In this document: positions 11,554-14,088 of the stretch, one piece after another | Layout: the number at the start of each line of letters is the position of its first letter | Position numbering within the stretch: position 1 is the first letter of the stretch | Source of the DNA: Kineococcus xinjiangensis | Lineage (GTDB): Bacteria > Actinomycetota > Actinomycetes > Actinomycetales > Kineococcaceae | Length of the DNA stretch: 64,000 nucleotides | Direction of reading: 5' to 3' | NCBI RefSeq assembly: GCF_002934625.1 | Contig: NZ_PTJD01000001.1 | Location: 1-64,000, forward strand | Translations under genes and position numbers: made by a program | The notes under the pieces: generated by a model | What the model saw: only the letters and a program-made list of their open reading frames with translations | Told to the model about the DNA's origin: nothing | Databases searched by the model: none

Positions 11554-12711
11554 GTGACTGAGACGAGCCGCGCCGCCCCGCAGGAGGAACTGCGCCCCCA
11601 CCCCGGTGGCGGCTTCAACGGCGCGAACATCCTCGACCGGTCCGGCGTCGTGCGCAGCGACATCCGCCCCTCCTTGGGCACCTCCACCACCACCGAGGGC
11701 GTCCCCATGACCCTGACGCTGCACATCGTCGACATGGCCGGCGGCGACGTGCCCTTCGAGGGCGCCGCCGTCTACGTCTGGCACTGCGACCGTGACGGGA
11801 ACTACTCCCCCTACTCCGAGGGAGGGGAGGACGAGAACCACCTGCGCGGCGTGCAGGTCGCCGACGCGAAGGGAAGCGACACCTTCACCAGCACCTTCCC
11901 CGCCTGCTACTCCGGGCGCTGGTCGCACATCCACTTCGAGGTCTGCCCCGACGTGAACTCCATCACCGACGCCACCAGCGCCATCGCCACCTCCCAGGTC
12001 GCCCTGCCCGAGGACGTATGCGAGGCCGTCTACGCCACCAGCGGGTACGGACTCTCCGTGGCCACCCTCTCCGAGGTCACGCTGTCCGGCGACAACGTCT
12101 TCGGGAACGACGCCGGCGCCAGTCAGCTGGGCACCGTCACGGGAGACGTCACCAGCGGCTACGCCGTCACCCTCACCGTCGGGGTCGACACGACCACTAC
12201 GCCCACCGCCGGCTCGGCCCCCGCGGGAGGTCCCGCGGGTGCAGGGGTTCCCGGCGGCCGGCCCCCGTCGGGCGCTGCCCCCGACGGTCCCCCGCCCACC
12301 GCCCGCCCGGCTTCCGCCTGGGTCGGACGACGTCTTCGCCGGCCCCGACCTGTTCCTGGAGCCGCCCCTCGTCGGCGCTCGGGTCGACGCCGTGGGCAAC
12401 CAGGTCTCTGTTGTCATCGACCTCCGCACCTGCCTCTCATCCAGTTCCGCAGACACCTCGGGGAACGGTCGCTGGTGATCAGCCTCGGGGGCGGTCACCT
12501 GCTCCTCCCGCTGCGCGCCCCGACGCTGCTCGCCCACGAGCACGACTACGTCATCCTCGAAGCCGAGCGCCTCACCCGGGTAGTGACCCCGTACGGCGGC
12601 GGCGATCCGCACAGCGCGTCCTGGGGCGATGCGCACCTGCGCTTGACGTGGAATCCGGACCGGGCCATGCAGGACTGGGGCCCACGAGGCCCCGTCGAGG
12701 ATCCACGATGA
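11554..12711 (+). CDS. Intradiol ring-cleavage dioxygenase-like protein, C-terminal half out of frame or fused
   Basis: Residues 1 to about 220 are a clear intradiol dioxygenase-type jelly roll: GVVRSDIRPS, AAVYVWHCDRDGNYSPYSEG, HLRGVQVAD, SGRWSHIHFEV and LPEDVCEAVYATSGYG. These contain the tyrosine and histidine positions that bind non-heme Fe(III) in protocatechuate and catechol dioxygenases. The many actinobacterial proteins of this type have no proven substrate. After a Gly/Pro-rich tail (AGVPGGRPPSGAAPDG) the frame continues for about 155 more codons. The part 12300-12440 is arginine-rich and looks non-coding in this frame, while another frame looks coding there. I infer a frameshift or a fusion with a second gene. 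The upstream direct repeat suggests control by the divergent response regulator. Confidence 0.7.
   Translation: MTETSRAAPQEELRPHPGGGFNGANILDRSGVVRSDIRPSLGTSTTTEGVPMTLTLHIVDMAGGDVPFEGAAVYVWHCDRDGNYSPYSEGGEDENHLRGVQVADAKGSDTFTSTFPACYSGRWSHIHFEVCPDVNSITDATSAIATSQVALPEDVCEAVYATSGYGLSVATLSEVTLSGDNVFGNDAGASQLGTVTGDVTSGYAVTLTVGVDTTTTPTAGSAPAGGPAGAGVPGGRPPSGAAPDGPPPTARPASAWVGRRLRRPRPVPGAAPRRRSGRRRGQPGLCCHRPPHLPLIQFRRHLGERSLVISLGGGHLLLPLRAPTLLAHEHDYVILEAERLTRVVTPYGGGDPHSASWGDAHLRLTWNPDRAMQDWGPRGPVEDPR
12239..12711 (+). pseudogene. Probable frameshifted second gene behind the dioxygenase domain
   Basis: Between 12320 and 12435 the frame starting at 12239 has GC-rich third positions and reads GSDDVFAGPDLFLEPPLV then DAVGNQVSVVIDLRT. 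It ends at 12478. From about 12440 the coding signal moves to the dioxygenase frame (IQFRRHLGERSLVISLGGG, then DYVILEAERLTRVV) up to 12711. The two halves together read as one small domain of unknown function, broken by a one-base change near 12430-12445. A sequencing error would give the same picture. Confidence 0.45.
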
Positions 12712-12801
12712 GCGCACCGCAGCACTGCGCCTGCCTCCCCGCCGACGTCGCGGGGGTCGGCTGCGGGGGCACGGAGAGAACTCGACAGCGTGTCGCAGCA
12801 G

Positions 12802-12875
12802 TAGCCGGCCGGGGAGCCGAACCCCGAACCTCCCGCTCCTCAGGCGGGCGCCTGCGCCGGTCGGGCCGGTCGGCC
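12802..12875 (-). tRNA. tRNA-like gene, anticodon GAG (Leu codon CUC), without long variable arm
   Basis: A 74-base cloverleaf can be drawn. The anticodon arm is CCCGC-CTGAGGA-GCGGG, the T arm CGGGG-TTCGGCT-CCCCG, the variable loop has five bases, the D stem has three pairs, and the acceptor has one mismatch and a terminal G-U. The anticodon is GAG. Real leucine tRNAs have a long variable arm, which is missing. Position 58 of the T loop is G where A is nearly invariant. It is therefore either a decayed gene or an unusual tRNA of the array. Confidence 0.45.
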
Positions 12876-12923
12876 GTGCACGTCCCCGGCGTCCTCCGGT
12901 GACGTGGATGTGCGGATCGTGCG

Positions 12924-12996
12924 CGCCCCCGGCAGGAGTCGAACCTGCGACCTGCCGCGTCGGAGGCAGCCGCGCTGTCCACTGCGCTACGGGGGC
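12924..12996 (-). tRNA. tRNA-Arg (anticodon CCG)
   Basis: A complete 73-base cloverleaf: acceptor GCCCCCG/CGGGGGC with G73, D arm GCGC/GCGC, anticodon arm GCTGC-CTCCGAC-GCGGC with anticodon CCG, and T arm GCAGG-TTCGACT-CCTGC. It reads CGG codons. CCA is not encoded. Spacing to the neighbouring array member is seven bases. Confidence 0.9.
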
Positions 12997-13003
12997 GGGA
13001 TGG

Positions 13004-13081
13004 CCGTGGTGGCGGGGCGCGAACCTGCGGGCCGAAGCCGCGGGTTCGCGCCCGCTGAGCGACCGGTCGCTCGACACCACG
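13004..13081 (-). tRNA. Class II tRNA-like gene, probable anticodon CGA (Ser-like), unusual loop
   Basis: The acceptor (CGTGGTG/CACCACG) and D arm (GAGC/GCTC) are perfect, and a variable-arm hairpin GGC-TTCG-GCC marks a class II tRNA. The anticodon stem GCGGG/CCCGC closes a loop of only six bases, CGCGAA, with G in place of U33. If read as a shortened serine loop the anticodon is CGA. The T stem has one mismatch and position 58 is not A. This is a well-folded but non-canonical or decaying tRNA. Confidence 0.45.
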
Positions 13082-13085
13082 CTGG

Positions 13086-13160
13086 GGTGACGTACGAGAC
13101 TCGAACTCGTTGTCTCCGGCTCCACAAGCCGGCGCATCGACCACTTCCGCCTACGTCACC
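13086..13160 (-). tRNA. tRNA-His (anticodon GTG)
   Basis: The acceptor GTGACGT/ACGTCAC is preceded by an encoded G at position -1 opposite C73, the identity mark of histidine tRNA. The anticodon arm is CCGGC-TTGTGGA-GCCGG and the T arm ACGAG-TTCGAGT-CTCGT. The D stem is weak (GCGG with TGC). The sequence differs from the housekeeping tRNA-His expected in actinobacteria, so it is probably an additional array copy. Confidence 0.82.
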
Positions 13161-13163
13161 GTG

Positions 13164-13216
13164 ACCCCCGTCCCCTCGGGACGGGGGTGGCCCCGTTCTG
13201 CGAGAACGGTGGGGCC
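13164..13216. terminator. Two tandem hairpins between HNH gene and tRNA-His
   Basis: A perfect 11-bp stem (13164-13174 with 13178-13188, loop CTC) is followed by an imperfect one (13189-13216, core GTTCT/AGAAC). They lie just upstream of the tRNA-His 5' end and 54 bases after the HNH stop. They could terminate the HNH transcript or guide processing of the tRNA precursor. Confidence 0.55.
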
Positions 13217-13269
13217 AGGCCGTCGGTAGCGCACCGGGGCCCGTGGCGGGGGGTGGCCGGTGTCCCTCG

Positions 13270-13812
13270 CTAGCTGGAGGTCTGCTGCACGCCCGTGAGT
13301 TCACCGGCGGCGAGCTCACGCCAGATCCGCCGCTGCACCGAGGCCGCGATGTCCGGCCGCCACGGCGTCCAGCGCAGCCGCATCCTCGCCTCCGACGGGG
13401 TGCGGTCGGCCTTGGCCGCGTTGCACGGGGCGCAGCAGGCGGCCTGGTTCTCCCAGGAGTCCTGCCCGCCGCGACTGCGGGGCACGATGTGGTCGATCGT
13501 CTCGCCCCGCCCGCCGCAGTAGATGCAGGTGTGCTGGTCCCGTTCGAGGACGGCCCGCCGGCTGGCGAGGCCACCCTCGGCGCCGGGGCGCGGCGGCGCG
13601 AAGCGCACGTGGACCCAGCGGGTCAGCCGAATGGCCCGTGGCCACGGCACCGCCGTGGACGGGGAGCGCACCAGGCGCTCGGGGTCGGCCTCGTGCACGA
13701 CGGCGAGCGGCGTGCCCGAGCCGTCGAGGGTGAGGAGCATGGTGACCGCCCGCTGCCACTGGACGGTGGCCAGGACGGTGCCGCAGGCGTTGAGGACGAG
13801 AACTGCACCCAC
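13270..13812 (-). CDS. HNH endonuclease inside the tRNA array
   Basis: The 180-residue protein starts at the GTG of 13812, placed eight bases after AGGAGG. The N-terminal half has the pattern of the common actinobacterial HNH proteins (AVLVLNACGTVLATVQWQRAV). The HNH beta-beta-alpha-metal fold follows with two zinc knuckles and catalytic histidine: CIYCGG, IDHIVPRSRGGQDSWEN, CCAPCNAAKADR. Such enzymes cut DNA, and free-standing HNH genes often travel with mobile elements, phage genomes or tRNA clusters. Its position between array members suggests that it moves with the array, but a housekeeping role cannot be excluded. Confidence 0.88.
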   Translation of the reverse strand: MGAVLVLNACGTVLATVQWQRAVTMLLTLDGSGTPLAVVHEADPERLVRSPSTAVPWPRAIRLTRWVHVRFAPPRPGAEGGLASRRAVLERDQHTCIYCGGRGETIDHIVPRSRGGQDSWENQAACCAPCNAAKADRTPSEARMRLRWTPWRPDIAASVQRRIWRELAAGELTGVQQTSS

Positions 13813-13862
13813 GAGGATCACCTCCTGTCGGTCGTGGTGGGCGGTGCTGGCGGATGGGTGTT

Positions 13863-13926
13863 GCTCGTGGTGCGGGATCGAACCGCTGACCTGCCGCACG
13901 TGGGGCGGTCGTGCCAGCCGGACGAG
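13863..13926 (-). pseudogene. tRNA remnant lacking the D arm
   Basis: Five of seven acceptor pairs (CTCGTCC with CCACGAG), a four-pair anticodon stem around the loop CCCACGT (possible anticodon CAC, Val) and a T arm GCGG-TTCGATC-CCGC can be recognised. Only about ten bases separate acceptor and anticodon stem, so the D arm is missing. Its spacing (nine bases from tRNA-Gly) fits an array member that has decayed. Confidence 0.4.
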
Positions 13927-13935
13927 CCCGGCGAG

Positions 13936-14008
13936 AGCGTGAGACGGGATTCGAACCCGCAATCGCCTGCTTGGAAGGCAGGTGCTCAGCCAGTCGAGCT
14001 CCTCACGC
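13936..14008 (-). tRNA. tRNA-Gly (anticodon TCC)
   Basis: A complete 73-base cloverleaf: acceptor GCGTGAG/CTCACGC with U73, D arm GCTC/GAGC, anticodon arm CCTGC-CTTCCAA-GCAGG, T arm GCGGG-TTCGAAT-CCCGT. It reads GGA codons. CCA is not encoded. Confidence 0.93.
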
Positions 14009-14013
14009 ACGAG

Positions 14014-14088
14014 TCGGGACGGCAGGATTCGAACCTGCGATGACCTGCACCCGAAGCAGGTGGGGTGACCTGGCTCCCCGACATCCCG
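14014..14088 (-). tRNA. tRNA-Pro (anticodon CGG)
   Basis: A complete 75-base cloverleaf: acceptor CGGGATG/CGTCCCG with A73, D stem GGGG/CCCC, anticodon arm CCTGC-TTCGGGT-GCAGG, T arm GCAGG-TTCGAAT-CCTGC. It reads CCG codons. It is the first member of the array in the direction of transcription, five bases before tRNA-Gly. Confidence 0.92.

Follow-up and report, generated by a model that had tools for sequence, protein, structure and literature searches.

The tRNA cluster in the window, the 64-kb stretch of DNA analysed here, is probably a chromosomal remnant, reduced by deletion and partly decayed, of a tRNA array with an HNH gene, a type found on phages and large plasmids of actinobacteria. 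Such arrays are known mainly from mycobacteria and their phages and plasmids, and the locus extends them to another actinobacterial family, for which we found no earlier report of such an array in the literature searched. It would also represent a late stage of decay on a chromosome, in which the HNH gene and a few tRNAs outlive the rest.

Layout of the array and state of its tRNAs

Run over the whole window, ARAGORN predicts five tRNAs and no more, every one of them on the minus strand within positions 12801-14088. Seven tRNA elements and one protein gene, minus strand throughout, occupy this 1.3-kb interval (Table 1). In the direction of transcription the order is tRNA-Pro (CGG), tRNA-Gly (TCC), X1, the HNH gene, tRNA-His (GTG), X2, tRNA-Arg (CCG) and X3, a short tRNA-Leu (GAG). 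Four of the tRNAs pass the 29-bit cut-off of the Rfam tRNA model RF00005, with E values from 2e-12 to 2e-8, and the two methods agree on the four good tRNAs that the first-pass annotation had placed on one strand. Pro–Gly, Gly–X1, His–X2 and X2–Arg lie a few bases apart; the gaps are wider from Arg to X3 (about 47 nt) and from HNH to His (110 nt).

Table 1. Features of the array, listed in the direction of transcription
Feature	Position	Strand	Description
tRNA-Pro (CGG)	14013-14088	-	ARAGORN; RF00005 52.6 bits; canonical core, encoded CCA absent
tRNA-Gly (TCC)	13935-14008	-	ARAGORN; RF00005 59.0 bits; good cloverleaf
X1, tRNA relic	~13863-13927	-	Fold; 6-bp acceptor stem; T arm GCGGTTCGATCCCGC; D arm degenerate
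HNH endonuclease gene	13270-13812	-	180 aa; GTG start at 13812, stop at 13270
Two strong G+C-rich hairpins	13164-13222	-	Between HNH and tRNA-His; -40.3 kcal/mol, 1/200 shuffles equal
tRNA-His (GTG)	13083-13160	-	ARAGORN (13083-13159); RF00005 47.9 bits
X2, tRNA-like structured element	13005-13081	-	Fold; 7-bp acceptor stem and D hairpin
tRNA-Arg (CCG)	12923-12996	-	ARAGORN; RF00005 62.3 bits; core fully canonical
X3, tRNA-Leu (GAG)-like	12801-12875	-	ARAGORN only; acceptor and T loop damaged

Reading the invariant core positions from the sequence, we found them kept in tRNA-Pro and tRNA-Arg; U8, A14 and A21 are all missing from tRNA-Gly. The tRNA-His gene encodes G-1, C73 and CCA, has U8 replaced, and possesses the weak D stem noted previously, with three pairs and one mismatch. 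Exact copies of the T-arm motif GGTTCGANNCC number four on the minus strand of the array and three in the remainder of the window, a total for which 0.6 would be expected by chance; none of 100 shuffles reached seven. The hairpins that precede tRNA-His may form the end of the HNH transcript or a processing site within it, and a search at them for a T-run terminator found none.

Elements X1, X2 and X3 went unmatched by the tRNA covariance model even when searched alone; the earlier label of 'degenerate or odd' is therefore correct. The anticodon of X1 is possibly CAC. In X2, the T side pairs with the anticodon side to make one long hairpin, and the predicted fold (-51.9 kcal/mol, z -5.0) was equalled by none of 200 shuffles. 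Folding suggests that X2 could be either a tRNA that has changed shape or a structured RNA of a new kind. A repeat element was ruled out, as no second copy occurs in the genome or the family. Its place between His and Arg-CCG raised the idea of a decayed tRNA-Tyr, to which the sequence lends no support, the best tRNA identity being 72%, to the host's own initiator-like Met. X3 is without a long variable arm, measuring 75 nt against 85 nt for the host's normal Leu-GAG, and among 436 tRNAs compared its D arm is closest to those of array Leu tRNAs. Nearly all Leu tRNAs of HNH-bearing actinobacterial arrays are likewise 74–78 nt long and miss the long variable arm (short forms were recorded in loci L066, L069, L118, L123, L173, L179, L183, L190, L266 and L272). 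In the same arrays, Ser and most Tyr tRNAs retain this arm.

The host genome (4.6 Mb in 42 contigs) has 52 tRNAs by ARAGORN, which was run on genome stretches picked up by a tRNA family search. The isoacceptor count that had been proposed shows that the 47 tRNAs outside the array constitute a full set, in which each array anticodon is present again. The array tRNAs are 68–80% identical to the host's own copies, about equal to their identity to foreign array tRNAs, and are therefore not recent duplicates. Tracing ancestry through tRNA identity was abandoned, since nearly all pairs fall within this range and hold no signal. A role in codon supply was also rejected: the codons served are common in the host rather than rare (CCG 29, CAC 23, CGG 27 and CTC 41 per thousand), GGA excepted. 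The comparison with relatives, likewise proposed, found the locus in none of 58 genomes, 11 of them from the host's family (represented by two genera) and 47 from elsewhere; these hold only HNH homologues and ordinary tRNAs.

Lineage of the embedded HNH gene

The gene reported in the middle of the array does encode an HNH endonuclease. Its product matches Pfam HNH_5/HNH well above cut-off, with the conserved cysteines and the DH...N...N motif unbroken, and a Shine-Dalgarno sequence, AGGAGGT, lies seven bases 5′ of the GTG start. HNH proteins of this superfamily were found in 329 of 395 actinobacterial genomes, and the host has a conserved one of its own (locus L002, contig C4), which groups with HNHs from the host's family. 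Sharing 40% identity with this paralogue, the array HNH falls in a 98/98 clade outside the housekeeping clade to which the paralogue belongs; the trees rule out its being a duplicate of the host's own gene. Fellow members of the 98/98 clade are the HNHs of mycobacterial tRNA-array plasmids, a Tsukamurella plasmid array and a Rhodococcus plasmid, along with those of Gordonia phages and some Nocardiaceae genomes. Within it, the array HNH sits on a long branch of its own and is not nested among the G2 plasmid HNHs, and the tree fixes no exact sister. The phylogeny supports assigning the predicted protein to a mobile, array-associated lineage. With the duplicated anticodons and the absence of the locus from 58 relatives, this bears out the earlier view of the tRNAs as foreign, non-housekeeping and of phage or plasmid type.

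The tie between this HNH family and tRNA arrays is strong. Relatives on viral contigs were found with an HNH alignment; single-sequence scans of viral and genome contigs had given none. A same-strand tRNA lies within 500 nt of the HNH gene at 42 of the 80 viral loci, and 17 of the 80 have same-strand tRNAs on both sides. For chromosomal copies, mostly housekeeping, the corresponding counts are 4/52 with an adjoining tRNA and 0/52 with tRNAs on both sides. In the mycobacterial plasmids the HNH gene is embedded on the same strand among 26–28 tRNAs. Reduced arrays that have kept it were also observed, in genome G427 (HNH, His and a short Leu) and on Dactylosporangium chromosomes.

The position of the HNH gene is fixed across a diverse set of viral and Micromonosporaceae arrays (L183, L190, L179, L173, L193, L201, L196 and L310), where it always stands directly before Gln-CTG and is nearly always directly preceded by Gly-GCC. 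A separate viral group (L168, L169, L171, L184, L194 and L204) has Cys-GCA upstream and/or Arg-CCG downstream of the gene, and its HNHs make a well-supported clade of their own.

Gene order and comparison with known arrays

Gene order was compared with that of large arrays in tests that were all post hoc. The viral arrays L179, L183 and L190 run Pro, ..., Gly-TCC, ..., HNH, ..., His, Tyr, Arg-CCG, a series that contains the order seen in the window (Pro, Gly-TCC, HNH, His, X2, Arg-CCG) as a subsequence. As good a match was reached in 0.0136 of shuffles by order alone and in 0.0036 with the His–Arg spacing included. Mycobacterial plasmids have Gly and Pro ahead of the HNH gene, in the reverse of the window's order, and behind it His, Arg-CCG, Arg-ACG and Leu, close to the window's arrangement; here the shuffle fractions were 0.0062 and 0.0022. 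By isotype, the G2 order agrees with the window after the HNH gene (His, Arg-CCG, Leu) and disagrees before it (Pro and Gly). The reference architectures conflict, with the HNH tree pointing to the mycobacterial and Nocardiaceae side and the Pro–Gly order to the other, viral type.

As the term is used in PMC5966550, a tRNA array unit has at least 20 tRNA genes at high density. The locus has five by ARAGORN, or seven with the relics. It shares with such units a high density of tRNAs on one strand, redundancy with the chromosomal set and sequence divergence from it, and an embedded HNH of the G2 array lineage (the 98/98 clade). That HNH also has the intact nuclease motif of a free-standing homing endonuclease. 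The locus is too small to count as a tRNA array unit, yet in lineage it is most likely the remnant of one.

Three known systems come closest to it. The G2 units of Mycobacterium plasmids and chromosomes (PMC5966550), including those on M. avium linear plasmids (PMC12803027), likewise have an HNH gene embedded among tRNAs of its own strand that are redundant and divergent, Gly-TCC and Pro before the HNH gene, His, Arg-CCG and Leu after it, and short Leu tRNAs. They differ in their plasmid setting, in the swapped Gly/Pro order and in having 26–28 tRNAs rather than four good and three decayed ones, and their HNHs are only 40–47% identical to that of the locus. Two chromosomal clusters that contain an HNH gene have been described, one of 11 tRNAs in M. 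mucogenicum and one of 14 in M. phocaicum; the authors also remarked on a distorted tRNA-His and on a tRNA-Leu whose variable loop is short, and Northern blots showed that cluster tRNAs are expressed (PMC6582537). Like the locus, these clusters are small, horizontally acquired and chromosomal, with the HNH within, a short Leu and an odd His; unlike the locus, they have more tRNAs, a rare Ile-TAT and demonstrated expression. The actinophage-like and Micromonosporaceae arrays (viral contigs L179, L183 and L190, Micromonospora maritima L310, and Dactylosporangium L266 and L272) also keep to one strand and have short Leu tRNAs, with Pro and Gly-TCC before the HNH gene and His, one element and Arg-CCG after it, and the chromosomal forms in Dactylosporangium are as reduced as the locus. 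However, their HNHs form a separate clade, the full arrays have about 30 tRNAs, and the HNH gene lies between Gly-GCC and Gln-CTG.

Origin, mobility and possible function

We envisage that a phage or plasmid array reached the lineage and then recombined into the chromosome, and that later deletion and mutation would have removed tRNAs, leaving the HNH gene and two to four tRNAs intact. The tRNAs that such elements carry have been proposed to stand in for host tRNAs cleaved by defence nucleases (PMC10264068), replacement of nuclease-cut host tRNAs has been shown for T5-like phages (PMC11555353), and the term putative antidefense systems has been applied to the arrays of mycobacteria (PMC12803027). 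The tRNAs of the parent elements probably sustain translation once defence nucleases cut those of the host. The HNH, proposed to help create array diversity (PMC5966550), probably aids array spread and reshuffling in those elements through cutting and recombination. In the present locus any residual function would be minor at most; the canonical Pro-CGG and Arg-CCG and the two near-canonical tRNAs could serve as backup copies.

The setting is chromosomal, because the contig also bears other housekeeping tRNAs. Ordinary genes flank the array, encoding a glycoside hydrolase 81, a histidine kinase, an intradiol-dioxygenase-like protein, a methyltransferase and a GGDEF-EAL protein, with argininosuccinate synthase, glutamine synthetase and aconitase farther out. 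Pfam searches of about 38 window ORFs found no integrase, transposase, phage structural, replication or transfer gene, and the G+C content of the array is similar to that of its surroundings. Among the relatives compared, the neighbouring genes are not syntenic and there is no syntenic empty site. With neither such a site nor a phage or plasmid gene beside the locus, the case for insertion is indirect, and both absences count against the remnant reading, as do the missing ancestry signal in the tRNA sequences, the post hoc nature of the order tests and the conflict between references. Piecemeal assembly of a small cluster would leave much the same picture.

The first-pass annotation had suggested a mobile tRNA cassette. 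As a statement of ancestry this stands, given the HNH lineage; as one of present mobility it is unsupported, for want of an integrase, a second copy or a G+C shift and with three of the seven elements decayed. It is improbable that the HNH acts as a homing element and actively carries this small discrete unit from genome to genome. Its intact motif, strong Shine-Dalgarno sequence, mobile lineage and patchy presence would suit such an element, but the locus occurs once in the genome, nothing closely matching it turned up in the plasmids, phages, viral contigs and relatives searched, and no element ends, repeats or recombinase were found. Erosion of a mobile tRNA array down to a remnant explains the locus better than a mobile cassette does.

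Assembly in place, in which a homing HNH and individual tRNAs of phage type would have come together separately at a single site on the chromosome rather than descend from one large array, is also unlikely. It would accommodate the small number of elements, the different array types indicated by HNH clade and tRNA order, and the uninformative tRNA identities. Against it, all elements lie on one strand with short gaps, the order of large arrays is matched better than by shuffles, and known array HNHs already sit in such arrays. We consider it very doubtful that the phage or plasmid tRNAs have been domesticated as nuclease-resistant spares for common codons, with X2 reshaped into a structured RNA of a new type and the HNH retained to guard the array. 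Least credible is a tRNA cluster of the ordinary chromosomal sort, or a duplicate of one, together with a copy of the housekeeping HNH: chromosomal tRNA clusters and superfamily HNHs are common, but a full tRNA set elsewhere, second copies of every anticodon at low identity, an HNH outside the clade of the host's paralogue and absence from the relatives contradict it. Sole genomic copies in conserved synteny, named beforehand as the mark of a housekeeping cluster, were looked for and are not what the genomes hold.

Remnants of an HNH-containing array, as we take the locus to be, let one test whether tRNAs are retained for anti-defence, for translation or for neither.

Two neighbouring genes drew separate attention. 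The ORF adjoining the array (11554-12711, plus strand) has an intradiol-dioxygenase domain at residues 46–121 only, followed by a tail that looks unrelated, and its third-position G+C is low, at 0.86; it is possibly frameshifted or decayed. GGDEF/EAL proteins are very abundant in the host and the same-family genomes, each of which gave 63–97 matches when searched with the GGDEF-EAL gene of the window.
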